From the NCBI GenBank assembly GCA_021299185.1, contig JAJTHZ010000080.1, positions 1-33,708 of the forward strand: DNA of 33,708 nt, written 5' to 3'. Below, piece by piece: positions 1,757-33,708 of the stretch; the stretch's first letter is position 1, and each line of letters starts with the position of its first letter. The DNA comes from Lysobacteraceae bacterium (GTDB lineage: Bacteria > Pseudomonadota > Gammaproteobacteria > Xanthomonadales > Ahniellaceae). A program made the translations under genes and the position numbers. The notes under the pieces are model-generated. The model did no database searches and was not told where the DNA came from. It was given only the letters and a program-made list of their open reading frames with translations.

Positions 1757-2571
1757 CTAGGGTTCGAAGCCGTTGCCGAACACGTCGATCGTTACGCAGG
1801 CCACCGCCAGGCAGATGCTGCCCGCGCCGCAGGGCGTGCCGTCGGCGCGCGGGCGGTTGCGGCAGCCGGGGGCGCCGCGGCAGGAGTCGGTGGTGCAGGC
1901 ATTGCCGTCGTCGCACGACACGCCCTCGTCGATCTGGGCGTCGCAATCGTTGTCGCGCGCGTCGTAGACCTCGGCGAGCCCCGGCCGCACGGCGGCGAAG
2001 TCGTCGTTGCAGTCCATCGGCGGCACGAAGCCGTCGGCATCGAGGTCGCGGGCGAAGGCGACGCTCTCCGGCGTGAGCACGCACTGGCCCTGGGCGTTGC
2101 ACACGGCGCCGGCCGTGCCGCAGGCGGTTCCGGGGGGTGCGTTGACCGTCGCGCAACTGCTGCCGCTGCAGGTGCGGCCGGTGCACAGCGAATTCACCTG
2201 CGCCGGGCACAGGCCCTCGGACGGGGCGCCTTCGTCGCTCGCGCCGTTGCAGTTGTCGTCCAGGGTGTTGCAGCGCTCGCGCACGCCGGGATTGAACTGA
2301 CGTCGTTCGGGTTGCAGGCCCCGATGCCGCTGCTTTCCTCCGGGTTCTACCAGCCGTCGCCGTCGTTGTCGCGCAGCGCGCAGGTGCCGGCGCTGCAGTC
2401 TTCGTCGGCATAGCAGGCCGCCCCGCAGGCGCCGCAGTGGGCAGCGGATGACTGGGGGTCGATGCAGACGCCGTCGCAGCGGGTCTGGTTCGGCAGGCAA
2501 TCCTGGGCCGCCAGCGGTCCCGCGAGGGCGAGTGCGGCGAGGGCGATTGCAAGGCGGAGCATGCGGGCCAT
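1757..2571 (-). pseudogene. Secreted Cys-rich MopE-like metal-binding-repeat protein with GNGFE tail, broken
   Basis: From ATG at 2571, with GGGAG just upstream, the product starts with a clear signal peptide (MARMLRLAIALAALALAGPLAAQ). A Cys-rich segment and DNDGDGW follow, then an in-frame TAG at 2349-2347. Past the stop the same frame stays sensible (NPEESSGIGACNPNDVSS). It then continues only after a one-base shift near 2298-2305 as FNPGVRERCNTLDDNCNG. The downstream part has the CNxxDDNCNGxxDEG and DxDxDGFxPPxDCNDD blocks of MopE-type putative metal-binding repeats. A CDDGNACTTDSC repeat comes next and the end is VFGNGFEP. Two lesions within about 50 bp make it a pseudogene or a local sequence error. 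The intact product would be about 270 residues and secreted. Confidence 0.75.
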
Positions 2572-2642
2572 GGGCGGCTCCCGGCGGACCATGCGACAGG
2601 TCGGTGTCGAGAATACCCCGGAAACGCCCGCCAACCCGCCAC

Positions 2643-2661
2643 ACCCGCGCACCGCGCGGGT
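2643..2661 (-). terminator. Candidate hairpin between amidohydrolase and Cys-rich gene
   Basis: ACCCGCGC and GCGCGGGT form a perfect 8-bp stem around a 3-nt loop, in the 182-bp gap downstream of the amidohydrolase on the same strand. There is no T-run, so it may be an mRNA end or processing structure rather than a classic terminator. Confidence 0.35.
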
Positions 2662-2753
2662 CGTCGGGCCGGTCAGCGCGGGGCGTTGCGACTCGCCCTC
2701 GCCGCGCAGCCGCGCGCCGACGCTCGGCCCGCGATCACGAGGATCACCGGCGC

Positions 2754-4784
2754 TCAGGCCCCGCTGACCGCCGGCGCCGTGGCGAACGGCTTGATCCCGA
2801 AGTGCGGGTAGACCTCGGCCGGGAAGTAGACCGTGCCGTCCTTGACCACCATCCGGATGCGGCGCAGTTCGCCGAGGTCCTGCGTGGGATCGCCCGGCAC
2901 GAGGAAGAAATCGGCCAGTTTGCCGCGTGCGATCGAGCCGAGGTCCTGGTCCTGGCCGAGGTAGGCGGCCATGTCGAGCGTGGCGCGACGCAGGGTCTGC
3001 GCCGGGGTGAAGCCGATTTCCTCGAACAGCATCAGTTCGCGGTGGAACGCCAATCCGCCGCCGAGGTCGGTGCCGGGGATCAGGAACACGCCGCGCTCGC
3101 GCATCTCGCGCACGGTGGCGAGCAGGGTGTCCCACGCGCCGGCATAGGCTTCGCGGTCGCCGGGTGCGCTCATGTCGGTCCAGGCCTGGCGCACGCCGCG
3201 CTGCCACTCGGGCGGCATGTGGTCGAAGACATCGGCCACGCCGCGCGGGATCTGCCCGGGCTGGTTGAGCAGCAGGTTCTCGTGGATCGCGATGGTGGGC
3301 TCGACCGCGACCTTGCGCTCGACGATGCGGTCCAAGGTCGTGCGCACGCGCGGCGACCGCAGGTCGAGGCCGGCGAGGCGCTTCAACGCGGTGAGCCGCA
3401 GCAGCGTGCGCGTGTCCTCCTCGGGCCCCAGCACCCAGCCCAGCATGATCTGGTTGATGTGGGTGAGCTCGTCGTAGCCCGCGTCGATCATCGCGTCCGC
3501 ATTGCTGAAGGCCGGGACGTGGCCGGTGGCGCGCAGGCCGAGGCGATGCGCTTCCGCCACCGCGGCCGCCGACCACTTCGGGTTCATGCTGTTGTAGAGC
3601 TTGACCTGGTGGAAGCCGCGCGCGGCGTACCAGCGCACCGCGTCCAGCGCCTCGGCCTCGGTGCCGACCAGGATGCCGTTGTTGGAGTTGAACGGGCTGC
3701 GGCCCTCGATGAAGCCGGAGCGCGCGATGCGTGGGCCCGCGACCTTGCCGGCTTCGATCGCGGCGATCAGCGCATCCAGCACCGCGTTGTCGTTGCCCAT
3801 GTCGCGGCTGGAGGTCACGCCCGCGACCACGTTGAGCAGGGTGCCGGCCTGCCCGGTGTGGGCGTGCATCTCGTACAGGCCGGGCACCAGGGTGCCGCCT
3901 TCGCCGTCGATGGTGACCTCGCCCGGCGTGGTGGGCGCATCGGCGGGCTGCACGCCGGCGATCCGGTTGCCGCGGAACACCACGCTGTGCGGACCGGTCA
4001 GCGCCAGCGTCGCCGGATCGAAAACGCGCACGTTGCGCACGCGCACCGGGGCGTCGAAACGTTTCGCGGTCTTGCGCTGCAGGTCCTCGTGGCGCTCGCG
4101 GGAGAGGCGCGCGGCGAGTTCGCGCAGGCGCGGGTCTTCCGCTTCGTAGCCCGCACGCACGACGGTCGAGCGCGGCGAGAGCACGGCGAACAAGCCACCG
4201 GCTTCGTCGAGCAGCAGGTAGGAGGGGTCGAAATTCAGGCCCGAGAGCACGTTCACCCGCACCGTGATCTTCGTCGTCTCGGCGCCGACCTTGAGCGACT
4301 CGCCCTCGGCGCGCATCAGCTCGCCGCCCGGCAGCGCCGGCAGCCGGCGGTCCTCGTCCGCGCGCAGCGCGCGCGCATACAGGCCCAGCGCCCACGGGCT
4401 GGCGCTCTGGCCGACGTAGACGTGCGGACCCTTCACCGTCGTCTTGCCCTTGCCGGCGCTGTCGGTCCAGCGCGCGCGGTTGCCGCGGCGCTCGAAGGAT
4501 TCGTCGACCTTGCTGCCGAAGGTGGTGGCGCCGGTGATCGTCCACGCCACCGGCAGCCCGTCGGCGCCGAGGCGCAGCGTTTCGGCGATGGTCGGGCCGC
4601 GGCCGTTGTTCTTGACGTCGTAGTTGATGCGCAGCGCATCGCCGTCGGCGGTGACCTTGACGTGGCCAACGCGGTTGCCGCCGATGACGACGGTGTAGGT
4701 CTCGTCGGCGGCGCCGGCGCCGGCGGGCAGGGTGCTGCACAGCGCCAGCAGGATGCCGGCGGCGAAAGTCTCGGCGTGGCGCAT
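2754..4784 (-). CDS. Exported metal-dependent amidohydrolase
   Basis: This 676-residue protein starts at ATG 4784, chosen because it begins a signal peptide (MRHAETFAAGILLALCSTLPAGAGA) behind a GGGGG stretch; the open frame extends further upstream without signal-peptide character. Residues about 27-270 are an N-terminal extension of unknown role. The rest is an amidohydrolase-superfamily barrel. Visible ligands are H307 and H309 (MHAHTG), K395 (VKLYN, likely the carboxylated lysine), H422 (TGHVPA), H442 (THINQ) and D573 (GTDLGG). The set matches binuclear enzymes related to Xaa-Pro dipeptidase/imidazolonepropionase-like exported hydrolases. The substrate cannot be read from sequence; periplasmic peptide or cyclic amide hydrolysis is likely. 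It is divergent from the zincin gene at 4975. Confidence 0.88.
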   Translation of the reverse strand: MRHAETFAAGILLALCSTLPAGAGAADETYTVVIGGNRVGHVKVTADGDALRINYDVKNNGRGPTIAETLRLGADGLPVAWTITGATTFGSKVDESFERRGNRARWTDSAGKGKTTVKGPHVYVGQSASPWALGLYARALRADEDRRLPALPGGELMRAEGESLKVGAETTKITVRVNVLSGLNFDPSYLLLDEAGGLFAVLSPRSTVVRAGYEAEDPRLRELAARLSRERHEDLQRKTAKRFDAPVRVRNVRVFDPATLALTGPHSVVFRGNRIAGVQPADAPTTPGEVTIDGEGGTLVPGLYEMHAHTGQAGTLLNVVAGVTSSRDMGNDNAVLDALIAAIEAGKVAGPRIARSGFIEGRSPFNSNNGILVGTEAEALDAVRWYAARGFHQVKLYNSMNPKWSAAAVAEAHRLGLRATGHVPAFSNADAMIDAGYDELTHINQIMLGWVLGPEEDTRTLLRLTALKRLAGLDLRSPRVRTTLDRIVERKVAVEPTIAIHENLLLNQPGQIPRGVADVFDHMPPEWQRGVRQAWTDMSAPGDREAYAGAWDTLLATVREMRERGVFLIPGTDLGGGLAFHRELMLFEEIGFTPAQTLRRATLDMAAYLGQDQDLGSIARGKLADFFLVPGDPTQDLGELRRIRMVVKDGTVYFPAEVYPHFGIKPFATAPAVSGA

Positions 4785-4974
4785 GGGGCCCCCACTCGGA
4801 TCGAGCCCGCGACTGTGCGCGATACGGCGTGGGTCGGCAACCGCCGGAGGGCAGGCAGCGAGGGGCGGCGGGCGCCGCCCGGCGCCACCCGGTCGCGGCG
4901 GTACCAGGTCGCCGCCTGTCGTTTCGCCCGCCGATTTCCGTTCTTCCCCCCGAGCCCGAGACCCGGAGGGTCCG

Positions 4975-7900
4975 ATGTCCCTGCGTCCCCGCTGCATTGG
5001 CGCCGACCTGCCGGCGACGTTCGCCGCGCTGGCGGTCGTCGCGTTCGCCCCGTTCGCGAACGCGATCCCGCCCCCGCCGAACTTCACCGTCGAGATCACC
5101 ACCCAGCCCAACAACTACGTGGTGCAGGGCGTGAACAACCCCGCCTCGCCGCACTACATGCACGGCCTGCAACTGCTCTCGGGTGCGTTCGCGCTGGACA
5201 GCAACCTGCCGCCGCAGCCGGGGCAGCCCGCCGGTTACCACCCGGGTTACATCAACACCGGCTTCCTTGCACCGTACTTCAGCGAGGGTACCCGCACCGT
5301 GCAGTTCTACGATTGCAAGGTGGAGGATGACCCCGAGGATCAGGGCTGCGACAACGGCATGGCGACCCTGGGGCGGATCCTGATGCCGACCTCGGTCTAC
5401 CAGACCAAGAGCGCGTCCTGCATCCGCGGCATCCTCGGCCACGAACTGTTCCACCACATCCAGTTCCGCTACGCCGACAACGGCGGCGAGTCGGGCTGCA
5501 GCGGCGTGTGGGGCAAGACCGCCTGCGAGGGCATGGCGCGCGCGATGCAGGACAAGATCTACTTCGACCTCGACCTCGACCCGGAGGCGAGCTGCGTGGC
5601 GCCCTTCCTCGGCCAGGTGGAGAACTACCTCGACGAGCCCTCGATGCCGCTTTGGTCCTCGAGCTACGACGCGGCGCTGTGGTGGACCTGGCTGATGGAG
5701 CAGTACGGCACGGTGACCACCGAACCGCAGCGCGGCACCGACTTCGTCGCGCGCTGGTGGATGGACGCGCAGGAGAACATCGGCAGCCCCAGTGCGTGGT
5801 CGATCACCGACCGCACGATCAAGGAAACCCAGCCGACGCAGTCGGTGACCAAGGCTTTCCACGACTTCATCATCGCCAACGTGGTCAAGGACCTCGAGAT
5901 CGCCAACACCAGCGCTTCGTTCCGCCAGCGCTTCTCCTACCGCGACGAAGACCCGGTGCCCGGGCGGGCCAACCTGCAGGACTATCCCCCGGTGTCGATC
6001 ACCGACTCGATGGTGGTGCTGAACGCCGGCAGCCGCGAGGTGCCGTATTCGGTCGCGCCCTACGGCGCACGCTACGCCACCTGGAACGTGTCCGACTGCC
6101 CGACCGGGTCGATCCTGCGCTACGAGGTCGAGCCGAGCCAGTCGTTCCTGCCGGGCGGCTTCGGCGTCGTCGCCGACACCAAGAGCTTCTACGCCCTGAT
6201 CCCGACCCAGGGATCGAACCCCGGCCGGCCGGCGTGGGTCTACAAGGCGCACACGCGCGACTGGACGCGCGAACTGGTGCAGCCGCTCGACCGTTACGAG
6301 CGGCTGATCACGGTCATCGCCGGCCGCTACGGCGACGTGCAGGGCGTGCACCGCGTGACCTGCGACACGGTGGCGCACGAGGCCGAACTGCCGTTCGCTT
6401 CGTCGACCAACCCGGTCACCCCGGGGCCGCTGGGTCCGGGCGAGTCGTTCATCCTCGACGTGCGCGTGCCGCCGGTCGGCACCAATCTGCGTGGCGCGCT
6501 GCGGGCGGTCGACGCCGAATCGATCGCGATTGGCGGCGGCGTCCCGCTGCGGCTCGAACCGGGTCCGCGTCGCGATCCGAACCTGGCCTTCGCCTTCCGC
6601 GCCACGGTCGATGGCACGGCGACCGTGGCGCCCGGCGACTACGACTTGACCCTGGAATTCGGCGGTCGCACGACGACGATCCCGCAGGCCTTGCGCATCG
6701 GCCCGGCCGCGCCCCAGGTGCTGCTGGCCCTCGACACCACGGCCAGCATGGCGCAACCGACGGCCGCGCCGAAGCTCGCCGTGCTGCGCCGCGCGGCGCG
6801 CAACCTCGTCTACGGCCTGCCGGCCGAGGCGCGCCTGGGGCTGATCGCCTTCGCCGGCAACGGCACCGAGCCCGACCAGGACGCGACGCTGCGCGCACCG
6901 CTGCAGGCGCTGGACGCCGCGCACCGCGAGCGCGTGCGCACCGCGCTCGACGCGCTGGTCGCCGGGCCCGGTCGCACCACACCGCTCGGCGATGCGCTGG
7001 CGCTGGCGCTCGCCGAGTTCGGCGCGCGCGCCGAACCGCGCCAGCGCCGCCACGTGGTGCTGCTCAGCGACGGCTCCGAGAGCGAGGGTCAGCGCTGGGC
7101 CGACGTCGACCAGGACGTGATCGCCGCCGGCATCGCGGTGCACACGATCGCGTTCGGGCCGCAGGCCGACCAGCCGCTGCTGGCGCGCATCGCGGCGGCC
7201 ACCGGGGGCACCTACCAGTACGTCGACAGCGCCGCGGCCGCCGACGAGGCCGGTCTCGGCGAGGCCATGGCCAGCGTCGGCGACGTCGCACAGGACCGTA
7301 CCGTGCTCAGCAACGAATCGATCACGATCGCCGGCAACAGCACGGAAACCGTGCGCGTGCGCGTGCCCGATGGACTGGCCACGGGAACGCGGCACCGGTT
7401 CTTCGCCGTGATCGACCGCACGCAGGCCGGTGTCGGCGGCATCGCCCAGGTTCGCGTGCTGCGGCCCGACGGCGTCGAACTGGTCGACGGCGTGGATGGC
7501 GCGCGCGTGCAGCGCATCGGCGACGACGTGGTGGTGGATGGACGGATCATCACCGGTGAGTGGTCGGTGCAGGTCACCGGGGCCGCGGGCGTGAGCGCGC
7601 TGCCGGTGCAGGTGCACGCCGCGGTGTCGGCCAGCGCCGGCCTGCGCGCCACGGTCGGTCTCGACCGGCCGCTCGGTCATCCGCCGACCGTCGGCGATAC
7701 CCTGGTCGGCGACAGCAGCGTGGTGCAGGTCGCCTTGCTGCTGCCGGCGGTGCAGAAGGTGCGCGAGGCCGCGGCGCGCATGCGCTCGCCGGACGGTCAG
7801 GTGCAGCTCGTCGCACTCAACGACGATGGTGAGTACGGCGACGTGCGCGCCGACGACGGCATCTGGAGCGGCACGTTCCGGCGCCAGACCAGCGGTTCCC

Positions 7901-9186
7901 CGACCGCGTTCCCCGACGAAGACACCCTGCCCGGCGTGCGCGGCAGCTATCGTGCCGACGTGACGGTGGCGACGGCGGCCGACGCCGTGCCGACCGACCA
8001 GTTCAGCTTCAACTTCAGCAAGGTCCAGTGGGTCGTGCGCGGCGGGGGCACGCTGCCCGACACCGATCTCGACCTCATGCCGGATCGCTACGAGCAGCGC
8101 CATGTCTGCCTCGATCCGGCCCTGGCCGACGGCTCGATGGACATCGACGGCGATGCCCGCGCCAGCCTGCTGGAGTTCCAGTCCGGCACCGATCCCTGCG
8201 ATGCGGATTCGGACGGCGGCGGCGAGGACGACGGCTCGGAAATCGCCCGCGGCGCGCAGCCGCTGGACCCGTCCGACGACGCCGTGCCGCGCATCGCCTA
8301 CGCCGGCATCGAGGTCCCGGGCGACGAGCACGAGGTCATGCCCACGCTGGTTCCGCGCGCCCTGTACGGCACGTACGCCCACGATGCACGCTACGCCAGC
8401 ATCGTCGTGCAGCGCGCCACGGCCGCCGGCGGGCCGTTCGTCGACGTGGCGACCCTCGACGCCGCGCAGGCGCGCGGCCGCTTCATCGACCAGCCGCCGA
8501 CCGTCGGCCAGCGCTACTGGTACCGGCTGCGGCCGCGCGATGCCGCGGGTCGCCGCGGCGCACCGAGCGCGGTGTTCAGCGGCGTGCTGCGCAACGACCC
8601 GGCGCGGCCGCTGGGCAGCGTGAGCATCGAACAGGGCCGCCCGCGCACCGATCGCAGCGCGCTGCGCCTGCGCCTGTCGCTGTACCAGAAGCGCTGGACC
8701 GGCGCTTCCTACCGGGTCGAGGTCGACGGCGAGCCGCTCGGCACTTGGCGGACCTTCATCCCGACGCCGACGCTGGACCTGCCGCCGGTGACCAGTCCGC
8801 GCAGGAGCCGCATCGCGGTGTGGCTGCGCGACGCCGAGGGGCATGAGTCGCGTGCCTATGTGGACGACATCCGCCGCTACCCGCCGAACGCGCTCGGCAG
8901 CGTCCGGGTGCGCGTGCTCGACGGTCGCACACGCGGCAGCGCGCCGGCGCAGGGCGCGCTGGCGCGGGTGGTGGGCAGCGAGATCGAACCGCCAGGCATC
9001 GCCGATGTCGGCGGCACCATCGTGCTCGACAGCCTGCTGCCCGGCGCGTACACGATCGAGATCGCGATCGACGGCCTGCCGTCCGTGTTCCGCCAGGTCG
9101 TGGTCGGCGCCGGTGGCGCGCAGGACCTCGGCGACGTGCTGGTCGTGCCACCGACCGACGCCGTGTTCGGCAACGGTTTCGAATAG
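4975..9186 (+). CDS. Secreted multidomain zincin with von Willebrand A domain and GNGFE C-terminus
   Basis: The 1403-residue product starts at ATG 4975 behind a strong GGAGG; the frame is open upstream but this start gives the signal peptide (to about residue 30, FANA-IPPPP). A metallopeptidase domain carries H156-E157-L-F-H160, with E185 (ACEGMA) a plausible third zinc ligand, as in gluzincins. A von Willebrand A domain starts near 585 with a MIDAS-like DTTAS (D587) and continues through TTPLGDA and LLSDGSES. Later come a beta-rich segment, an Asp-rich calcium-type stretch (about 1025-1105, DTDLDLMPD and DADSDGG), a fibronectin-III-like region and a carboxypeptidase-regulatory-like fold near the end. 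The protein stops with AVFGNGFE. It probably works outside the cell or on its surface; the substrate is unknown. No close named family is recognised for the whole chain. Confidence 0.9.
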   Translation: MSLRPRCIGADLPATFAALAVVAFAPFANAIPPPPNFTVEITTQPNNYVVQGVNNPASPHYMHGLQLLSGAFALDSNLPPQPGQPAGYHPGYINTGFLAPYFSEGTRTVQFYDCKVEDDPEDQGCDNGMATLGRILMPTSVYQTKSASCIRGILGHELFHHIQFRYADNGGESGCSGVWGKTACEGMARAMQDKIYFDLDLDPEASCVAPFLGQVENYLDEPSMPLWSSSYDAALWWTWLMEQYGTVTTEPQRGTDFVARWWMDAQENIGSPSAWSITDRTIKETQPTQSVTKAFHDFIIANVVKDLEIANTSASFRQRFSYRDEDPVPGRANLQDYPPVSITDSMVVLNAGSREVPYSVAPYGARYATWNVSDCPTGSILRYEVEPSQSFLPGGFGVVADTKSFYALIPTQGSNPGRPAWVYKAHTRDWTRELVQPLDRYERLITVIAGRYGDVQGVHRVTCDTVAHEAELPFASSTNPVTPGPLGPGESFILDVRVPPVGTNLRGALRAVDAESIAIGGGVPLRLEPGPRRDPNLAFAFRATVDGTATVAPGDYDLTLEFGGRTTTIPQALRIGPAAPQVLLALDTTASMAQPTAAPKLAVLRRAARNLVYGLPAEARLGLIAFAGNGTEPDQDATLRAPLQALDAAHRERVRTALDALVAGPGRTTPLGDALALALAEFGARAEPRQRRHVVLLSDGSESEGQRWADVDQDVIAAGIAVHTIAFGPQADQPLLARIAAATGGTYQYVDSAAAADEAGLGEAMASVGDVAQDRTVLSNESITIAGNSTETVRVRVPDGLATGTRHRFFAVIDRTQAGVGGIAQVRVLRPDGVELVDGVDGARVQRIGDDVVVDGRIITGEWSVQVTGAAGVSALPVQVHAAVSASAGLRATVGLDRPLGHPPTVGDTLVGDSSVVQVALLLPAVQKVREAAARMRSPDGQVQLVALNDDGEYGDVRADDGIWSGTFRRQTSGSPTAFPDEDTLPGVRGSYRADVTVATAADAVPTDQFSFNFSKVQWVVRGGGTLPDTDLDLMPDRYEQRHVCLDPALADGSMDIDGDARASLLEFQSGTDPCDADSDGGGEDDGSEIARGAQPLDPSDDAVPRIAYAGIEVPGDEHEVMPTLVPRALYGTYAHDARYASIVVQRATAAGGPFVDVATLDAAQARGRFIDQPPTVGQRYWYRLRPRDAAGRRGAPSAVFSGVLRNDPARPLGSVSIEQGRPRTDRSALRLRLSLYQKRWTGASYRVEVDGEPLGTWRTFIPTPTLDLPPVTSPRRSRIAVWLRDAEGHESRAYVDDIRRYPPNALGSVRVRVLDGRTRGSAPAQGALARVVGSEIEPPGIADVGGTIVLDSLLPGAYTIEIAIDGLPSVFRQVVVGAGGAQDLGDVLVVPPTDAVFGNGFE

Positions 9187-9246
9187 GCGCGGCGTCCATG
9201 GGGCCGAGCCCAGGGCACGCCGCGGATCCCGGAGCGCGGTGGCGCC

Positions 9247-9287
9247 GAGATCGCGAACCGACATTCATGCGATTCTCACGTTTTTTT
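9247..9287 (+). terminator. Probable intrinsic terminator after the zincin gene
   Basis: GAGATCGC (9247-9254) pairs with GCGATTCTC (9269-9277) with one bulged base. A run of seven T follows at 9281-9287, conspicuous in this GC-rich DNA. It lies 60 bp after the zincin stop and before the DUF1800 gene. The stem is short with a 14-nt loop, hence moderate confidence. Confidence 0.42.
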
Positions 9288-9423
9288 GACACGGGCGGCC
9301 CGCCGGCACCGCGCCATCGCACAAGCGTGCCGCAGTGCTCAATCCGACCGGCGGCGGATCGTCCAATATCCGCCCCAAGGGGGGTCCGCGCTACCCTTTG
9401 CCGGCCTCGTGGGGAGTTCCTGC

Positions 9424-11610
9424 ATGTCTTACTTCCGTGTGATCGCGCTGCTCGGCGTGTCCCTGGCCGCGCTTGCCTGCGGCGGGCGCGCCGTCGCCCA
9501 GGGCACCGACAACATCTTCGCCAACGGGTTCGAGGTGGTGCCGGTCAGCGAGGCCGAGGCGGCGCGCTTCCTCAACCAGGCGACCTTCGGTGCGAACGCC
9601 GCCGACATCGCGGCGGTGCGCAACCTCGGCTACTCGGGCTGGATCGACCAGCAGTTCGGAATCGCCCCGACCTCGCACCGCCGCGCGCTGGAACTGCTGG
9701 CGGTGACGCTGCCGGCGAACACCAGCATCAATCGCGACGATCGCATGCGCCAATGGCATCGTGCGGCCGTGCTGGCGCCGGACCAGCTGCGACAGCGACT
9801 GGCCTTCGCGCTGTCGCAGATCCTGGTCGTCTCCGACGACAGCGACGCGCTCTCGGGTGAGCCGCTGATGGTCGCCGAGTGGAACGACATGCTCGCGCGG
9901 CACGCCTTCGGCAACTACCGCGACCTGCTGGAGGACGTGACGCGCAGCCCCGCGATGGGCCGCTACCTCACTTCGCTGCGCAACCGCAAGTTCGAGGGAT
10001 CGGTGACGCCGGACGAGAACTACGCCCGCGAGATCATGCAGTTGTTCTCGATCGGCCTGTTCGAGCGCGAGCTCGACTATGCGCCGATCCTGGTCGGCGG
10101 CAATCCGGTGCCGACCTACAACAACGACATGATCGCGGCCCTTTCGCGCGTGTTCACCGGCATGTCGTACGCCTGCACCGCGACCGCCGAGCCGTTCCCG
10201 GGCGCGGGCTTCACGATCGTGCGCAACTGCGGGCCCGGTGATGCGCTGCAGCGTCGCTTCAACTCGGGTCCGTCGCCGAACCTGTTCAGCCAGTTCTTCA
10301 ACGACCCGCCGCGCGACGACAACGCCAACAACCTGCTGCCGAACACCACGCCGCTGAACCGCGGGCTGCGACACCCGGACTTCTTCGCACCGATGGTGTG
10401 CTACCCGCGCTACCACGACGCCGGAAGGCAGGCGAACAACACGCCGTGGACCGGCGTCTCGCCGCAGCCGACGCCCGACAAGACCCTGGTGATCGCGGGC
10501 CAGACGCTGCGCACCGTCACGCCGATCTCACAGGCGTCCGGCACCACCCAGCCGACCAACTGCAACACCACCGGCTCGCCGACGGCGACCGTGCCGTACG
10601 GCCTCGACGACGCGAATCGCCAGGCCTGCGTCAACTACTGCGAGAGCAACATCGATGGCGCGGTGGACATGCTGTTCGCCCATCCGAACACCTCGTCGCT
10701 GGTCGCCCGCCAGTTGATCCAGCGGTTCGTCACCAGCAACCCGTCGCCGGCGTACGTGCGGCGCGTCGCCTGCGCCTTCGAGGGCACGAGCGCGCAGGCG
10801 GGCGAGTGCACGCCGGCGAGCAACAACCCGCGCGGCGACATGCGCGCCGTGATCCGGGCCGTGCTGCTGGATGTCGAAGCGCGGCGTCCGTTCGGCGGCG
10901 CGGGCATCGCCGCCAACTTCGGCAAGGCGCGCGAGCCGATCCTGAAGCTCACCCAGTTCTGGCGGTCGATGGGCGCGACCATGCCGCCGCTGACCGGCCG
11001 CAACTGGGGCCCGACCAATCCGCAGACCAGCTACGCGCAGCGACCGCTGGGCGCGCCCTCGGTGTTCAACTTCTACGAGCCGGACTACAAGCAGGCGGGC
11101 CCGATCTCGTTGGTGGACATCAACGGCAACCCGTCGAGCACCGGGCTGTTCTCGCCCGAGTTCCAGATCCTCAACGAGGTGTCGGTCATCGACAGCGCGA
11201 ACGACCTGTTCGGGCGCGTGTGCGCCGGCTACGGCGGCAACAACTGCAATGGCGCCTTCGCCGCGACGCCGCCCACCGACCGCGCCTACGTGCCGCCGGC
11301 CAACCTGGATGCCTTGCCGATCGGTGATGGCAGCGCGACCAGCGACGCCGCGCTGATCGAAGCGCTCAACGTCCGGCTGATGGGCGGCACGATGAGCGGC
11401 ACCATCGATGCGGCGGCGGCGTGTCCGGCGCCGGGCGCTTCGCCGACGCTCACCGCGACCCTCGGCAGCGGCATGAAGGGGCGCCTGTACGGGATGCTGC
11501 GTTGTACGGCGTTCAATACGCTGGGCGCGACGCAGGACAATCGACGGCGCAAGGCCTTGCTGCTGTCGCACTTGATCCTGATCTCCCCTGAATTCAACAC
11601 GCAGCGCTGA
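9424..11610 (+). CDS. DUF1800 family exported protein with N-terminal NGFE motif
   Basis: The 728-residue protein starts at ATG 9424 with GGGGAG upstream. A signal peptide spans about residues 1-26 (LLGVSLAALACGGRAVAQ), and DNIFANGFE follows immediately. The DUF1800 domain begins at AARFLNQATFGANAADI and includes DQLRQRLAFALSQILVVS and NYAREIMQLFSIGL, both characteristic of the family. The C-terminal part has PSVFNFYEPDYK and ends LLSHLILISPEFNTQR, the usual family ending. DUF1800 proteins are exported, are almost always encoded next to a DUF1501 protein, and have no settled function. The next gene starts 11 bp downstream and is the DUF1501 partner, so the two are surely co-transcribed. The position of the NGFE motif at the N-terminus is unusual. 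Confidence 0.93.
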   Translation: MSYFRVIALLGVSLAALACGGRAVAQGTDNIFANGFEVVPVSEAEAARFLNQATFGANAADIAAVRNLGYSGWIDQQFGIAPTSHRRALELLAVTLPANTSINRDDRMRQWHRAAVLAPDQLRQRLAFALSQILVVSDDSDALSGEPLMVAEWNDMLARHAFGNYRDLLEDVTRSPAMGRYLTSLRNRKFEGSVTPDENYAREIMQLFSIGLFERELDYAPILVGGNPVPTYNNDMIAALSRVFTGMSYACTATAEPFPGAGFTIVRNCGPGDALQRRFNSGPSPNLFSQFFNDPPRDDNANNLLPNTTPLNRGLRHPDFFAPMVCYPRYHDAGRQANNTPWTGVSPQPTPDKTLVIAGQTLRTVTPISQASGTTQPTNCNTTGSPTATVPYGLDDANRQACVNYCESNIDGAVDMLFAHPNTSSLVARQLIQRFVTSNPSPAYVRRVACAFEGTSAQAGECTPASNNPRGDMRAVIRAVLLDVEARRPFGGAGIAANFGKAREPILKLTQFWRSMGATMPPLTGRNWGPTNPQTSYAQRPLGAPSVFNFYEPDYKQAGPISLVDINGNPSSTGLFSPEFQILNEVSVIDSANDLFGRVCAGYGGNNCNGAFAATPPTDRAYVPPANLDALPIGDGSATSDAALIEALNVRLMGGTMSGTIDAAAACPAPGASPTLTATLGSGMKGRLYGMLRCTAFNTLGATQDNRRRKALLLSHLILISPEFNTQR

Positions 11611-11621
11611 GGATCGCCCAC

Positions 11622-13358
11622 ATGAGCCGTCATGAGTTTCGCTCGCGTCGCGCTTTCCTCCAGGCGGCTGCCGCCACGGCGGCCTGCGGGGGGATCAGTT
11701 CGCTGGCGCCCCAGTTCTCCATGCTCGGTACCGCGCTCGCGCAGTCCAGCGTCACCGGCTACAAGGCGCTGGTCTGCCTCAACCTCGGCGGGGGCAGCGA
11801 TTCGTTCAACATGCTGATCCCGATCCAGCCGGACCGTCATCGCGAGTACCTGATCGCGCGCGGCGGCACGGAAGCCGACCCCCTGTCGGGCCAGTTCTCG
11901 GGCAATGCGCAGCGCCTGGGCATCCCGCGGCCGGGTACCGAGGTGCCGGGAAGCACGCTGCCGCCGGCACTGCCGATCGCGGGCGGCACCCACGGCCTCA
12001 ATCCGGCCTGCCCGGAACTGCGCGACCTGTACGACCAGGGTCGACTGGTGTTCATGAACAACGTCGGCCCGCTGGTCGATCCGGTGAGCCGCGCCACGTT
12101 CAACAGCGGCCGCTCGCGCCCGCCGCAGTTGTATTCGCACAGCGACCAGACCGTGCTGTGGGAAGTCGGCGACAGCCTCAATTCCGGCCTGCGCACCGGC
12201 TGGGGCGGGATGCTGGCGGGCACCATCGGCGCGCAGAACGACGTTCCCGGCCTGCCGCCGTGCATCACGATCGCCGGGCAGAGCCGGTTCCTGGTCGGCC
12301 GCACGTCGGGCGCCTCGTCGCAGCCGATCGTGCCCTATCGACTGTCGACCAGTGCTTCATCGCCGGCGCCGACCCTCGGCAACTACAGTTCGAGCAACAC
12401 CGGCAACCTGGAGAATGTGCGTCGCGCAAACCTCGAAGCGCTGCTCGCGGCGACCTATCCGCACGTGATGAGCGGTGAGTTCGCCGACCTGAGCGAGCGC
12501 GCGCTCGACCTCGGTGCGCGGGTCAATCAACGCATCGGCAGCGGCGGCGCGTTCAACGCGATTCCCGGCGGCGTGTTGTTCCCCAACACCGGCATCGGCA
12601 ACCAGCTCGCCCAGGTGGTGCGGATGATCAACGCCGGTCGCACGGCCACCGCCAGCGGCGGCATCGGCGCCAATCGCCAGGTGTTCTTCGTCAGCACCGG
12701 CGGCTACGACACCCACGACGGCCAGTTCAACGGCAGTTCGCGCGGCGGCGTGGCGCAAGGGCCGGCGAACGGGCCCAATGCGGCGGGCTTCTGGGGCGGC
12801 CAGCAGGGCCTGCTGCAGGACATCTCGCAGGCCGTGTCGGCGTTCTACCGCGCGCTGGTGGCGATGGGAGCCCACAACGAGGTCCTGCTGTTCAGCACCA
12901 GCGAGTTCGGGCGCACGATCAACTCCAACGGCAACGGCACCGACCACGGCTGGGGCGGCGTGCAGTTCGTGCTCGGCGGCGGCCAGGGCACGCCCACCGG
13001 CACCATCAACGGTCAGGCCATCGGCGCCAACGACGTGGGCGGCGGCCCGTTGCGCGGGCGCAATCCGCAGACCGGCAGCGGCAGCGGGATGTACGGGCGC
13101 TACCCGCGCATCGTGCTCAACGCCACCGACAGCGCCGCGATCCCGCTGGAGGAAAAGGGCGAGTGCTTCTCGCGCGGCCAGTTCCTCCCCACCCTGTCGA
13201 GCGAACAGGTCTCGGCCTCGCTCGCACGCTGGATGGGGCTGGACGCAGGCAACGTCGGCACCCTGTTCCCGAACGTGGGGCGCTACGACGATTTCGTCGG
13301 CAACGGCAACCTGATGGCGTACACGACGCCCACCGTCCCCTTCATCGTGGGGGTCTGA
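11622..13358 (+). CDS. DUF1501 family Tat-exported protein
   Basis: The 578-residue product opens with a twin-arginine signal (RSRRAFLQAAAATAACGG), so it is probably exported folded through Tat. The DUF1501 domain follows: LVCLNLGGGSDSFNML near the start, VFFVSTGGYDTHDGQF in the middle, and LLFSTSEFGRTINSNGNGTDHGWGG towards the C-terminus. The last two resemble sulfatase/alkaline-phosphatase-fold metal sites (FGRT and GTDHG are the family hallmarks). Its ribosome-binding site overlaps the DUF1800 stop. Function is unsettled in the family; a secreted hydrolase-like role together with DUF1800 is an inference. Confidence 0.94.
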   Translation: MSRHEFRSRRAFLQAAAATAACGGISSLAPQFSMLGTALAQSSVTGYKALVCLNLGGGSDSFNMLIPIQPDRHREYLIARGGTEADPLSGQFSGNAQRLGIPRPGTEVPGSTLPPALPIAGGTHGLNPACPELRDLYDQGRLVFMNNVGPLVDPVSRATFNSGRSRPPQLYSHSDQTVLWEVGDSLNSGLRTGWGGMLAGTIGAQNDVPGLPPCITIAGQSRFLVGRTSGASSQPIVPYRLSTSASSPAPTLGNYSSSNTGNLENVRRANLEALLAATYPHVMSGEFADLSERALDLGARVNQRIGSGGAFNAIPGGVLFPNTGIGNQLAQVVRMINAGRTATASGGIGANRQVFFVSTGGYDTHDGQFNGSSRGGVAQGPANGPNAAGFWGGQQGLLQDISQAVSAFYRALVAMGAHNEVLLFSTSEFGRTINSNGNGTDHGWGGVQFVLGGGQGTPTGTINGQAIGANDVGGGPLRGRNPQTGSGSGMYGRYPRIVLNATDSAAIPLEEKGECFSRGQFLPTLSSEQVSASLARWMGLDAGNVGTLFPNVGRYDDFVGNGNLMAYTTPTVPFIVGV

Positions 13359-13370
13359 GCGGAGCGGGTC

Positions 13371-13393
13371 GACCGCCGCGCGGCGCCGCGGTC
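13371..13393. terminator. Candidate bidirectional hairpin between convergent genes
   Basis: GACCGC (13371-13376) pairs with GCGGTC (13388-13393). Inside lies a second GCG/CGC stem separated by a C-C mismatch. The site is in the 67-bp gap between the DUF1501 stop and the stop of the convergent cytochrome-like gene. There is no T-run. Confidence 0.35.
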
Positions 13394-13425
13394 GTCGATC
13401 CGTCGCGGCGTGCCGCGCATGGGGA

Positions 13426-13977
13426 TCAGAATCGGATCGTGTCGAATCCGCTGACGTGAATCACGTCGCTCTGCGGCGATCCCTTGAAGTCGCCGCGTGC
13501 ACCCTGCGCGATCCAGTCGTAGATCAGGGCCTGGTCCGCGGCGCTCAAGTAGTTGCAGGTGGCGCCGAAGCAACGCGGCATGCGCCAACCCTGATCGCCC
13601 GGAACGGCGCAGTTCAGGCGCTGGAACAAGGTGCTGGCGCGTGGGCGCAGCGGTTCCACCACGTCGGTGGATGCGTCCAGCAGGCTGACCAGGGTCAGCC
13701 CCGGTTCGCCGGACACGATGTTGAACCGGGCGCCGGGCACGGCCATCGCGTGGCAGCCCACGCAGCGCTGCGCGAGCAGCGGATACACCTGCGTGTCCCA
13801 GTTCGCGTTCGGCTGGAACGGCGCGTTCGCAAGGCTCTCGCACTGCAGGGTCTGCGTGCCGCCGGCGGCCGCGGCGGGATGCTGGCCATCGCCACGGTCC
13901 GGCCAGGCGATCGCCGGACCGGCAGCGAGCGCGAGGACCGGGAGCAGGGCAAGGGCGCCGACGCGTTGCAGGTGCAT
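13426..13977 (-). CDS. Exported single-CXXCH cytochrome-c-like protein
   Basis: The 183-residue product begins with a signal peptide (VGALALLPVLALAAGPAIAW). It has one heme-attachment motif, C72-V-G-C-H76, preceded by TQVYPLLAQR, the arrangement seen in planctomycete-type/YXXPXL cytochrome-c-like domains where a binding site follows 'i.pil...C..CH'. A possible distal ligand is the Met of GWRMPRCF. Extra cysteines (LNCAVPG, RCFGATCNYL) may form disulfides. The YDWIAQGA block near the end is also typical of c-type cytochrome domains. It faces the DUF1800/DUF1501 pair tail to tail and may act with it, but this rests on position only. The start lacks a strong ribosome-binding site. Confidence 0.8.
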   Translation of the reverse strand: MHLQRVGALALLPVLALAAGPAIAWPDRGDGQHPAAAAGGTQTLQCESLANAPFQPNANWDTQVYPLLAQRCVGCHAMAVPGARFNIVSGEPGLTLVSLLDASTDVVEPLRPRASTLFQRLNCAVPGDQGWRMPRCFGATCNYLSAADQALIYDWIAQGARGDFKGSPQSDVIHVSGFDTIRF

Positions 13978-14054
13978 CGCCGAAGGATATCGTGGATGCG
14001 CAGGACGCTTCCGTGAACGGTTGCGCGCTCTCGCCGGGGTCGGCACCCGGCGCG

Positions 14055-17723: not shown

Positions 17724-17754
17724 GCCGCGATCCCGCCGGGATGGCGCCAACCCC

Positions 17755-18016
17755 ATCGCGCTGCACGCAGCGCTCCCACCGAGCCTTCGCATGGCCGGGG
17801 CGCCGCGACCGGGCCGAGGCTTGGTGGGAGCGGCGCGTGCGCCGCGAGCTTTTCGCGCTTGCCGCAAGCCCCGGTCGCGCTGCACGCAGCGCTCCTACCC
17901 AGCCTTCGCATGGCCGGGGCGCCGCGACGGGGCCGAGGCTTGGTGGGAGCGGCGCGTGCGCCGCGAGCTTTTCGCGCTTGCGGCAGCCCCGGTCGCGCTG
18001 CACGCAGCGCTCCTAC
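17755..18016. repeat. REP-like array of alternating inverted units, period 118-119 bp
   Basis: The 318-bp gap between YceI and the glyoxalase-fold gene is filled by an array. Inverted units of the GCGCTGC/GCAGCGC stem family end at about 17779, 17898 and 18016. Direct units of the GCGGCGC/GCGCCGC stem family start at 17824 and 17943. Spacers containing CCTTCGCATGGCCGGGGC are repeated almost exactly. Both unit types also occur once at 1588-1693. It separates convergent genes. Confidence 0.85.
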
Positions 18017-18041
18017 AGTCAACGCGCTGCCGGCGCGGGAC

Positions 18042-18821
18042 TCAGGCGGCGGGTGCGGCGCGGCGGATGAGGTAGCAGCCGACGCCGGTCGGGTCGTCGA
18101 TGCGGGCGATGCGGCCGACGCCCGGGGCGTCGAAGGCCGGCACGACGACCGCGCCGCCGCGCTCGGTCGCGCGCGCGCAGCACGCGTCGACATCGGGCAC
18201 CGGCACGTACACCGACCAGTGCGAGGGCATGTCGCCCCAGTCCGCGGTCATCGGCAGGACGCCGCCATAGCGCGTGCCCCCGCGGCCGAACTGCAGGTAG
18301 CGGAATCCACCCGGTGCGGACTCGTCGATGTCCCAGCCGAGCAGGTCGCGGTAGAAGTCGCGCGCGCGGTCGCCGTCGCGCGCGGCGAGTTCCACCCAGC
18401 CGATCGCGTGGTCCTCGAACATCACGAAGTCGCCGGCATCACCGGGGTTCGCCGGCTGCCACAGGCTCACCACCGCGCCCACCGCATCGGTGAGCATGGC
18501 GCCGCGCCCGAAGCCCGGCGCCTCGAAGGGGTCGAACAGGCGCTTGCCGCCGAGCGCTTCCGCGCGCGCCAGCGCGACGTCCACGTCGGCCACCGCGAAG
18601 TACACGTTCCAGTAGCCGCGCGGCTCGCCGGGCGCGAGGCCGCGCAGTGCGCCGACGGTGCCGTTGGCGTTGCGCAGGAACCAGTACGGGCCCCCGCCGC
18701 CCGGTGAGGGCGAGGCCTGCCAGCCGAACACCTCGCGGTGGAAGTCGATCGAGCGCTGCGGGTCGGACGTGGCGAGTTCGAACCAGCACGGCGCGCCGTT
18801 CGGCGGCAGGTGGATCGGCAT
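18042..18821 (-). CDS. Two-domain VOC (glyoxalase-fold) protein
   Basis: The 259-residue protein starts at ATG 18821 behind a strong AGGAGG. It has two vicinal-oxygen-chelate domains. The first (about 10-118) starts CWFELATSDPQRSIDFHREVFGW; the second (about 133-255) has GWVELAARDGDRARDFYRDLLGW and ends FDAPGVGRIARIDDPTGV. The GWxELxxxDxxxAxxFYxxLxGW blocks are typical of the CFP-30B/hydroxylase-like VOC subgroup. Substrate unknown; no obvious signal peptide, so cytoplasmic. The divergent gap to the response regulator (236 bp) shows no clear site. Confidence 0.9.
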   Translation of the reverse strand: MPIHLPPNGAPCWFELATSDPQRSIDFHREVFGWQASPSPGGGGPYWFLRNANGTVGALRGLAPGEPRGYWNVYFAVADVDVALARAEALGGKRLFDPFEAPGFGRGAMLTDAVGAVVSLWQPANPGDAGDFVMFEDHAIGWVELAARDGDRARDFYRDLLGWDIDESAPGGFRYLQFGRGGTRYGGVLPMTADWGDMPSHWSVYVPVPDVDACCARATERGGAVVVPAFDAPGVGRIARIDDPTGVGCYLIRRAAPAA

Positions 18822-31273: not shown

Positions 31274-31332
31274 AAGTGGCGCGTTTCACCAATGTGATGG
31301 GGCCGGGCCGGGTGCGTTCAAGCGGCCGCGGC

Positions 31333-31814
31333 CTGTGGGAGCGAGCACCGCTCGCGACTGGCAGCCCCATGCGCGCGGCCGGCTTCGAGGTTGCAGTCGC
31401 GAGCGGTGCTCGCTCCCACAGATCGACGGCCCGGCGCGCTGGCCCCGCTGAGTACCGAGGCCGGCGCCAAAAGGCCCTCGGGTCGAGGCGTCCGGGCGAC
31501 CTTGCAGGCGCAAGCAACGCTCGCGACCGGTAGCCCCATGCGCGCGGTCGGCATCGAGGTTGCAGTCGCGAGCGGTGCTTGCTCCTACAGATCGACGGCC
31601 CGGCGCGCTGGCCCCGCTGAGTGCCGAGGCCGGCGCCAAAAGGCCCTCTGGTCGAGGCGTCCGGGCGACCTTGCAGGCGCAAGCAACGCTCGCGACCGCG
31701 GCCGCGGCCTGTGGGAGCGAGCACCGCTCGCGACCGGCAGCCCCATGCGCGCGGTCGGCATCGAGGTTGCAGTCGCGAGCGGTGCTCGCTCCTACAGATC
31801 GACGGCCCGGCGCG
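31333..31814. repeat. Mosaic REP-like array, A-B-A-B-A pattern
   Basis: The 547-bp stretch between the ahpC promoter region and the M24 gene holds three A units (31333-31439, about 31511-31609, 31709-31814) alternating with two B units (31440-31510 region and about 31610-31680). Each A unit begins with a GTGGGAGC or CAAGCAACGC head, contains GCGAGC/GCTCGC stems, and ends with the inverted copy (arms GCGAGC..GCTCGC then TCC[CT]AC). In the outer A units the inverted arms pair over about 26 bp. The B units share CCGAGGCCGGCGCCAAAAGG. The remaining sequence shows no gene. Confidence 0.85.
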
Positions 31815-31822
31815 GGTTGTGC

Positions 31823-33178
31823 TTACCGCACCAGGTGCCAGCGCGTCTGCCGCCCGGCGAGGTAGACCACGCGCTCGCCATCGAACAGCGCGCCCTGCTC
31901 GAGCTTCACCTGCACCCACTGGTCCTTCCACTCCGGCAGGCGCACCTTCACGTTGCCTTCGATCGCGTACACCGTGGACGCATGCAGCGGCCAGTCGCCC
32001 TGGCCGATCGTCGGGCCCTGGTTGTCCCACATGCCGATGGTCGGGCCCGGCGCGTGGCCGAACATCCCCAGCGGATGGGTGTAGGTGCTGCTGGTGATGC
32101 CTTCCTTCTCCGCCGCCGCGCGGGTGCGGGCGAGGATCTCGTTGCCGGTGCGCCCGGCGACGAAGTTCGCGGTCAGCAGGTCCTGCCAACGGTTGCCGAC
32201 CGCCAGCGCGTCCTTCAGGCCCTGCGGCACGTCGGTCTCGCCGATGCGCGCCACGTAGGCCATCTCCTGCGTGTCGGTGCACAGCTTGAGGTAGCAGATG
32301 CCGACGTCGGTGTGCAGCACGTCGCCGGGCTGGATCACGCCCGACACGCCGCAGAAGTCGGTGTCCTTCTCGCAGGTCTCGCCCGGGCGCTGCGCGTTGA
32401 CGTAGGGCATGAACCAGATCGGCAGGCCCAGCGACTCGAAGCGCTGGCGGATGTACCAGGCGATGTCGTCGGTGGTGGTCACGCCGGGCGTGATCACGCG
32501 CGCGCTGAAGGCCTCGGCGATCACCCCGCGCGCGATGCCCATGATGTGCGGGTAGACCGCCAGTTCGCCCGGCGCGCGCGTCTCCAGCCAGCGCACCACG
32601 AGGTCTTGCGCCGACACCAGCCGGCTGGCCCAGCCGTCCGGCAGCACCTCGACCAGCTGCTGGTGCAGGCCGTGCGTGAGGCCGTCGGCGACCGCCCACT
32701 CGCGCGAGACGTTGATGCCGATGCGCTTCGGGTCCTTGGAGCGGACCAGCTCTCCCAACGCCTTCCACTGCGCGTCCAGGTCGCCGCCCGACCAGGCCGA
32801 TTCATAGGGTTTGCCCAGCGGGTAGCGGTTGACGCTCAGCCGGTCCACCGTGCCATCGGCCTTGCGGTGGAAGACCAGCATGGTGGTGCGCCGCGCGGCG
32901 AACGAGGGCTGCGGCACCAGGGTGAAGTACACCGGGTCCTCGCCATATTCGCGGTTGATCACCAGCCACAGGTCGAGATCGGCTTCAGCCATCAGGCGCG
33001 GCAGCAGGGTCTCCAGCCGCTCGGTCAGCATGCGGTTCTCGGGCTCGATGCGCGCGCGCGGCGCGAGCACGGCGAAGTCGTCGGCCGAGCCGACGACCCG
33101 GCCCTGCGCGGGGTCGGTGGCGCCGGCGGCCGCGGGCAGCAGGGCGAGCGAGAGGGCGAGGGCGGTCAGGCGGATCAT
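31823..33178 (-). CDS. Exported M24-family metallopeptidase (Xaa-Pro aminopeptidase-like)
   Basis: The 451-residue product starts at ATG 33178 with a signal peptide (LTALALSLALLPAAAGA). The N-terminal half is a creatinase-like domain. The C-terminal pita-bread domain keeps recognisable metal ligands: Asp in VLHTDVGICY, Asp in LCTDTQEMAYV, His in YTHPLGMFGH, Glu in VYAIEGNVKV and Glu in VQVKLEQGALF. The HPLGMFGHAPGP stretch differs from the usual GHGIG but is in the right place. It is expected to remove N-terminal residues before proline or cleave a related peptide in the periplasm; the substrate is not certain. It is isolated between two repeat arrays; the stop (TAA) is 9 bp from the array at 31814. 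Confidence 0.9.
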   Translation of the reverse strand: MIRLTALALSLALLPAAAGATDPAQGRVVGSADDFAVLAPRARIEPENRMLTERLETLLPRLMAEADLDLWLVINREYGEDPVYFTLVPQPSFAARRTTMLVFHRKADGTVDRLSVNRYPLGKPYESAWSGGDLDAQWKALGELVRSKDPKRIGINVSREWAVADGLTHGLHQQLVEVLPDGWASRLVSAQDLVVRWLETRAPGELAVYPHIMGIARGVIAEAFSARVITPGVTTTDDIAWYIRQRFESLGLPIWFMPYVNAQRPGETCEKDTDFCGVSGVIQPGDVLHTDVGICYLKLCTDTQEMAYVARIGETDVPQGLKDALAVGNRWQDLLTANFVAGRTGNEILARTRAAAEKEGITSSTYTHPLGMFGHAPGPTIGMWDNQGPTIGQGDWPLHASTVYAIEGNVKVRLPEWKDQWVQVKLEQGALFDGERVVYLAGRQTRWHLVR

Positions 33179-33274
33179 CGGGGCACCCGGCGGTGGTGGA
33201 AAACGCCGAGCATGCCACCGGGACCTGCGAAAGGACCATGCAGATCACCGGCCCGATGCCGCATGCCGCCCAAC

Positions 33275-33708
33275 GCAGGAGCCCGCTTGCGGGCGACCGC
33301 AACCCCCGTGCTCGCGGCATGTTCCAGCGCCGCGGTCGCGCGCAAGCGCGCTCCTACGCGAGGTGCCGCGTGATGTAGGAGCCCGCTTGCGGGCGACCGC
33401 AACCCCCATGCTCGCGGCCGGTCCCGCTGCCGCGATCGCGCGCAAGCGCGCTCCTGCGCGAGGTGCCACGTGATGTAGGAGCCCGCTTGCGGGCGACCGC
33501 AACCTCCATGCTTGCGGTGGGTTCCGCTGCCGCGGTCGCGCGCAAGCGCGCTCCTGCGCGAGGTGCCACGTGATGTAGGAGCCCGCTTGCGGGCGACCGC
33601 AACCCCCATGCTCGCGGCCGGTCCCGCTGCCGCGATCGCGCGCAAGCGCGCTCCTACGCGAGGTGCCGCGTGATGTAGGAGCCCGCTTGCGGGCGACCGC
33701 AACCCCCA
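33275..33708. repeat. Tandem REP-like array with exact 100-bp period (runs off the window)
   Basis: Units start at 33275, 33375, 33475, 33575 and 33675, exactly 100 bp apart. Each has a direct arm (G[TC]AGGAGCCCGCTTGCGGGC), a roughly 30-bp variable spacer, and an inverted arm (GCGCAAGCGCGCTCCT[AG]C), followed by CGAGGTGCC[GA]CGTGAT. The two arms share head and stem design but differ by a C-G to G-C pair swap. No gene is seen here; open frames across it are a by-product of composition. Confidence 0.92.

Follow-up and report, generated by a model that had tools for sequence, protein, structure and literature searches.

A seven-residue tag on export-like proteins of Lysobacterales is co-distributed with a second type II secretion system

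The window analyzed here is a 33,708-nt stretch of a Lysobacteraceae bacterium genome (GenBank assembly GCA_021299185.1, contig JAJTHZ010000080.1), and the subject is a seven-residue tag found in it three times. A first-pass annotation had noticed two copies, the identical ends VFGNGFE of two unrelated exported proteins, and both were verified. A relaxed scan of all six frames added a third copy. The tags and the genes that carry them are as follows.

1757–2644, minus strand: open frame of 295 residues as listed, the tagged C-terminal part of an interrupted Cys-rich protein
1763–1783, minus strand: C-terminal tag VFGNGFE of the same Cys-rich protein, with one P between it and the stop codon
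4975–9186, plus strand: zincin-like exported protein of 1403 residues with a signal peptide, zincin-like part, VWA domain, choice-of-anchor X domain and terminal tag
9163–9183, plus strand: tag VFGNGFE, with a stop codon immediately after, at the end of the zincin
9424–11610, plus strand: DUF1800 protein with a signal peptide and N-terminal tag (AlphaFold model m74acf351b404)
9514–9534, plus strand: tag IFANGFE, the third copy, just past the signal peptide of the DUF1800 protein

The Cys-rich gene has its signal peptide and first part in one frame that runs into a stop codon, and its tagged end in another frame; the stop and frame change (1757–2600, minus strand) are an assembly error or a sign of a decaying gene. 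The zincin-like part of the 1403-residue protein scores 36.5 bits against NF045524, under the cut-off of 140, and its choice-of-anchor X domain 28.7 bits against NF041940 (cut-off 25). Its last 137 residues gave no NCBIfam match even at E up to 10, and a structure model of this end made without an alignment was useless (mean pLDDT 32.7). The DUF1800 model, made with 33 sequences in the alignment, has a mean pLDDT of 79.8. The tag occupies model residues 27–33, within an N-terminal segment (9–33) with pLDDT <50. On this ground it was rejected as a fold element, and in the model it looks like an exposed add-on rather than a piece of the fold.

The strict pattern [IVM]-F-x-[ND]-G-F-[ED] was back-translated and searched in the whole genome (4.84 Mb, 270 contigs). 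It has 41 matches, all read in frame, versus 0 for a reversed-pattern control. Only 0–6 residues separate the motif from the stop codon in 35 copies; four are followed by 37, 77, 109 or 112 residues, and the remaining two are N-terminal, both in DUF1800 proteins after the signal peptide. The motif is clearly above chance at C-termini, as the first-pass annotation had expected. Outside the fixed positions, Ala is found at residue 3 in 21 of the 41 copies, Asp two residues upstream in 19 and Pro directly after the motif in 19. The same residues are written with different codons in genomes that differ in base composition (for example, the AT-rich genome G008), and synonymous differences occur among copies within genomes too. 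The motif is short and pattern searches are open to bias, so the matches were also weighed as products of chance, of a DNA element repeated at the ends of genes, or of an artefact. Against the empty control, the synonymous codon differences, and the preserved reading frame and terminal position, such an origin is extremely improbable and was rejected.

Apart from the tag and the initial Met, the 41 tagged proteins share no sequence (mean column identity 7%). Among the 25 commonest of 65 Pfam families, they include S8 peptidases (three), DUF1800, FG-GAP, DUF11 and beta-helix proteins (two each), and single cases of endonuclease I, reprolysin, GSDH and several Ig-like domains. NCBIfam choice-of-anchor Q domains are found in four, D in one, and X in the window zincin. 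Loci L144 and L146 encode similar last domains; one protein stops at the domain end and the other continues with a short linker and the tag. Three paralogues of about 96 residues on one contig (L032 at 4582, 9841 and 18359; G000:C215) consist of a signal peptide, one small domain and the tag, and are nearly minimal tagged proteins.

Signal peptides were called by a crude home-made rule rather than a trained predictor. Under the lax form of the rule, 27 of 34 complete C-terminally tagged open reading frames pass. With ATG starts only, 24 of 34 pass versus 173 of 373 for conserved genes that surround type II secretion system (T2SS) operons (Fisher p 0.007), a hard control rich in membrane and secretion proteins. 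A control with liberal starts, in which 292 of 373 pass, was dropped as meaningless and replaced by the ATG-only rule. An earlier comparison gave 10 of 13 tagged proteins versus 21 of 123, with many spurious open reading frames in the control. The expectation that the tag is not equally common in cytoplasmic proteins holds only by this crude rule. In the wide sense the tag behaves like a C-terminal sorting signal: the same short end is found on many unrelated, mostly export-like proteins of one genome.

The tag is not strictly C-terminal. Of 30 copies examined in six other genomes of the order Lysobacterales, 25 lie 13 residues or fewer from the stop codon, four are inside the protein and one stands behind a signal peptide (locus L058); L226 is a further N-terminal case. 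DUF1800 relatives in many Lysobacterales, among the named genomes, have tag-like forms right behind the signal peptide, such as IFRDGME (L090), IFRDNFE (L091), FFKSGFE (Tahibacter, L101), LFVYGFD (Dokdonella, L100), LFRANFE (L107) and IFASGFE (L109). IFANSFE is found in a 91% identical DUF1800 protein (L088) from a metagenome-assembled genome labelled Burkholderiales, possibly in error. Another DUF1800 type found in the order is extended by a long N-terminal part (L092–L094, L096–L099) and has no tag there, and none was found among the DUF1800 proteins read from Verrucomicrobia, Photobacterium and Saprospirales. The first-pass proposal of a terminal sorting signal holds as regards unrelated, mostly export-like carriers, and fails as regards a fixed C-terminal position.

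Residue 5 varies among G, S, R and N, which rules out a strict D/N-G core as required chemistry; the wider form of the tag is [IVLM]-F-x-[DN]-[G/S/R/N]-F-[E/D]. In genus g14 of family f9 (for example, G037 and G009), the strict pattern has almost no matches and the tag is IFxDRFE in the choice-of-anchor proteins read. A pattern with Ser or Arg at residue 5 has up to 60 matches in this genus (G037) and 0–2 in 13 tag-negative genomes tested from families f2 and f12.

A [DN]-G pair favors a tight turn, here between the two Phe residues. A motif for self-assembly or matrix binding outside the cell might take this form, and two tags stand close together in L042 and, to judge from spacing alone, also in G010 and G097. 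The occurrence of R or S at residue 5 weakens the tight-turn idea, and a self-assembly or matrix motif offers no reason for the link to a secretion system described below; this explanation is very unlikely. In L077, the later part of the protein begins VFDDGMEQGDGAWTH, which is reminiscent of the first strand of jelly-roll domains, and such a strand may have been the origin of the tag.

Strict-pattern matches were counted in 299 genomes of Lysobacterales and 226 genomes of the class outside the order. Within the order, genomes have either up to 154 copies or almost none. Families f1, f3, f4 and f11 have at least seven copies throughout, and f8 nearly so. Families f2 and f12 mostly have 0–3, with tag-rich exceptions in two f2 genera (41 and 59 copies) and four f12 genera (19–154). 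No genome outside the order exceeds four copies, where the control maximum is three, and these matches are background only.

Choice-of-anchor Q domains (NF041518) were searched in 46 genomes. Each of 16 strict-tag-positive genomes has 4–43 matches, and 13 tag-negative f2 and f12 genomes have 0–4. Of 65 choice-of-anchor loci read, 56 were parsed and nine were unparsable; 14 frames ran off the locus and were excluded from the count of ends. In tag-positive genomes, including those of f9 g14, 33 choice-of-anchor Q proteins carry the tag or a near form of it at the C-terminus, and 20 of them fit [IVLM]Fx[DN][GSRN]F[EDQ]. Tagged ends follow the domain directly, and usually 11–24 residues lie between the domain and the last residue. 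Exceptions are L210, which is doubtful, L187, in which the tag is internal, and L212 and L213, with ends that read as IPTL-CTERM-like. None of the ends at five loci of other genomes (G053, G440, G063, G032, G349) is tagged, and the G349 end (L172) has a helix and basic tail. In choice-of-anchor Q proteins, the tag stands where other members have sorting signals.

These ends might instead point to a signal for surface retention or processing, read after or beside export by a receptor or enzyme; a secretion system would then be merely the carrier and be lost jointly with the tag. In choice-of-anchor Q proteins the tag stands where L212 and L213 have IPTL-CTERM-like ends and L172 a helix and basic tail, and the NCBIfam rhombosortase-, myxosortase- and T9SS (type IX secretion system)-dependent M36 peptidase models match one each of the 41 tagged proteins. 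Placement right behind a signal peptide is ill-suited to a C-terminal transpeptidase. Rhombosortase, the sole sorting enzyme searched, exceeds the TIGR03902 cut-off (84 bits) in two of 44 genomes, both tag-negative. It scores 82.7 bits in G028 and 80.1 in G149, both tag-positive and just below the cut-off, and at most 60.3 bits in the other 20 tag-positive genomes. It is not supported as a general partner, being not co-distributed with the tag. A retention or processing role is rated unlikely, at about one chance in four.

Besides rhombosortase, the genes near tagged genes and near DUF1800, the general T2SS and a second T2SS were tried as partners. Among neighboring genes, only DUF1501 and a small cytochrome-like protein recur, both beside DUF1800 and the latter less often. 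In the window (9424–14000), DUF1800 is followed by an untagged DUF1501 gene, with a Tat-like start (RRAFLQA), and then by the small cytochrome-like gene on the opposite strand. A tagged DUF1800 protein might carry an untagged partner out of the cell.

The secretin GspD (TIGR02517) was sought in the same 44 genomes, selected beforehand by their tags (22 tag-positive, including three that qualify by the Arg form, and 22 tag-negative). A tree was built from 70 over-cut-off sequences of 43 genomes; the tag-negative genome G001 has none. One clade (support 0.998) has exactly one sequence from each of the 22 tag-positive genomes and none from tag-negative genomes, and each tag-positive genome has two over-cut-off GspD. 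The other sequences are the general T2SS of the order and two long-branch f2 outsiders (G023, G061). The general T2SS is present with and without tags and was rejected as the partner. Tag-clade loci have the typical order gspC-gspD-gspE-gspF, with rho-trxA-rhlB and/or ftsE-ftsX flanking at least one side in 16 of 22. A distinct GspC is encoded upstream of the tag-clade GspD in 22 of 22; three that were scanned have T2SSC (HR) and PDZ domains, and the PDZ part aligns in all 22. Within about 6 kb on each side, the other 48 GspD loci have no rho, trxA or tag-system GspC, save a remote GspC in L289. In Pfam, no GspC or PDZ domain was found in seven open reading frames of one general T2SS locus (L278). 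Behind its GspD, this locus has two conserved genes of 203 and 520 residues with no Pfam match (7957–8565 and 8869–10428). The GspC of f9 g14 (for example, G037 and G009) differs in the alignment around the start of the PDZ part, and the tag and its reader may have co-evolved in this genus.

When 151 genomes of the order were searched with a profile built from the 22 GspC, 83 gave a match. The match in G061 is a weak outlier at 81.6 bits (others 134–386) and was counted as absent. Genomes with at least five tags were taken as tag-rich, with Ser/Arg variants counted in only part of the 151 genomes. Both GspC and tags are present in 72 genomes, tags only in six, GspC only in ten and neither in 63. 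GspC is therefore found in 72 of 78 tag-rich and ten of 73 tag-poor genomes (Fisher p 1.5e-24, without correction for kinship). When genera are counted instead, the corresponding numbers are 30, one, three and 30. With the 18 profile-building genomes removed, GspC is found in 54 of 60 tag-rich genomes by our own arithmetic. Within f2, the single GspC-bearing genome has 42 tags and 24 genomes without GspC have 0–2. Within f12, four genomes with GspC have 23–100 tags and 20 without it have 0–2. Across Lysobacterales, a distinct PDZ-GspC T2SS largely shares the tag's pattern of presence and absence. The first-pass annotation had also suggested anchoring. No direct support for anchoring was found, and the strongest link is to the second T2SS, that is, to export.

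The link could be indirect, with lineages losing secreted proteins, tag and machine together for ecological reasons and without recognition. The drop in choice-of-anchor Q domains in tag-negative genomes implies that many secreted proteins go together. The association is seen in f2 and in f12 when each is taken alone, the general T2SS does not track the tag, and indirect loss gives no account of the conservation of a seven-residue end. Indirect loss is thus improbable, at odds of roughly one in eight.

The preferred reading, with a rough probability of 0.55, is a linear export tag of Lysobacterales that tolerates different positions and serves a dedicated PDZ-GspC T2SS; recognition and export are inferred. 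Sec would take tagged proteins across the inner membrane, and once folded in the periplasm they would present the flexible tag to the second T2SS on its periplasmic side. The most likely reader would be the PDZ/HR region of GspC or the N-terminal domains of GspD, and the reader would recruit the tagged protein to leave through the secretin. Cleavage is not a requirement, because the tag also stands at N-termini, and the product would be either released or kept on the surface. T2SS substrates fold in the periplasm and the HR of GspC binds the secretin (PMC12369372; PMC11981180); the GspC PDZ is needed for some substrates, and PDZ domains canonically bind extreme C-termini (PMC12369372). Canonical binding would suit most copies of the tag, and N-terminal copies would need another mode. 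That the tag is a common linear signal for one T2SS branch, seven residues long, position-tolerant, captured by a PDZ GspC or the secretin mouth and graftable onto a folded periplasmic protein, is put forward tentatively, at a little under even odds.

Several points weigh against the export-tag reading. N-terminal and internal sites sit poorly with the classical mode, in which a PDZ domain binds a C-terminus. Joint loss could reflect a shared way of life, and the support consists of sequence patterns and co-distribution, from which binding and secretion are predicted. Exported proteins without the tag are common, since only six of 14 S8 peptidase matches in the source genome end in the tag or a close variant (11 loci read, two apparently the same gene). 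Six genomes have at least five tags and no GspC match. Three of these (G041, G059, G117) are 77–94% complete with positive relatives in their own genus; the other three (G063, G121, G131; f7, g32) may be true exceptions, with one variant locus seen in each, which is internal, and their strict copies unread. Ten genomes have GspC and fewer than five counted tags, and the Ser/Arg scan covered one of them.

Elsewhere in the window, strings such as GVRATLQAQATLATGSPMRAVGIEV and SPASGLLHHAAPRVGARLRAT recur in several translated frames at 17741–18070, 31286–31865 and 33175–33708, which suggests repeat families in the intergenic DNA.

No description of the tag motif was found in the literature searched, which excluded subscription papers and covered the top rows of large result sets. 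The only string match was the letters 'ifangfe', probably inside a personal name, in records with unrelated titles and abstract starts. The tag appears to be new, since no description was found and, according to the papers cited below, T2SS have no known conserved signal. Should the tag alone hold up, without the export role, it would still be a terminal sorting signal of a new kind. Cargo selection by T2SS machines remains an open problem. If the export-tag reading is true, dozens of proteins per genome share a readable tag that may be the first simple address label for such a machine, the secretomes of a whole bacterial order become predictable, and a handle for exporting folded proteins is available. 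Genomes with and without the matching machine stand side by side within families, which makes recognition directly testable.

The tag was compared with known systems. It has no hydrophobic helix or basic tail, as 35 of 41 own-genome copies stop within six residues of the motif and the printed ends show neither. The two tag-bearing tails tested matched no NCBIfam model. The first-pass distinction from GlyGly-CTERM, PEP-CTERM, LPXTG and type IX signals is thus borne out, and the helix and basic C-terminus of GlyGly-CTERM, PEP-CTERM, MYXO-CTERM and LPXTG signals are absent. PEP-CTERM/exosortase, MYXO-CTERM/myxosortase, LPXTG/sortase and IPTL-CTERM are like the tag in placing one terminal signal on many proteins, and signals of these types also occur with choice-of-anchor domains. 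To our knowledge, all of them have a transmembrane helix and basic end, which the tag does not. The type IX C-terminal domain is likewise a C-terminal export signal on folded proteins, but it is a whole folded domain of Bacteroidota, and the tag is seven residues in Lysobacterales that follow other domains or short linkers.

GlyGly-CTERM/rhombosortase resembles the tag as a C-terminal signal on many unrelated exported proteins that is co-distributed with a partner. It works beside the T2SS in Vibrio cholerae (PMC13393428) and combines a Gly/Ser motif, a hydrophobic stretch and positive charges; a rhomboid protease processes it (PMC6219818). The tag has none of these three elements, may be N-terminal, and does not co-occur with over-cut-off rhombosortase (TIGR03902) in the 44 genomes.

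The Xps/Xcs T2SS of Xanthomonas belongs to the same machine family as the tag-clade T2SS. The nearest outsiders of the tag clade are the weak G061 GspC match and the long-branch GspD of G061 and G023; no rho, trxA, rhlB or ftsEX was seen adjoining these two GspD loci, and both genomes have 0 strict tags. XpsC of Xanthomonas is described as having no PDZ, with a single helix in its place (PMC11981180), and our guess is that G061 and G023 are Xanthomonas-like. Recognition through the GspC PDZ in OutC/PelI and EpsC/VesB is similar in architecture, with HR and PDZ in GspC as in the tag system. Flexible substrate parts are thought to be read by T2SS (PMC7949064; PMC12369372). A linear universal T2SS signal is stated to be lacking (PMC12369372) and a conserved signal not to have been identified (PMC11981180). 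The determinants in OutC/PelI and EpsC/VesB are structural and substrate-specific, whereas the tag is linear.

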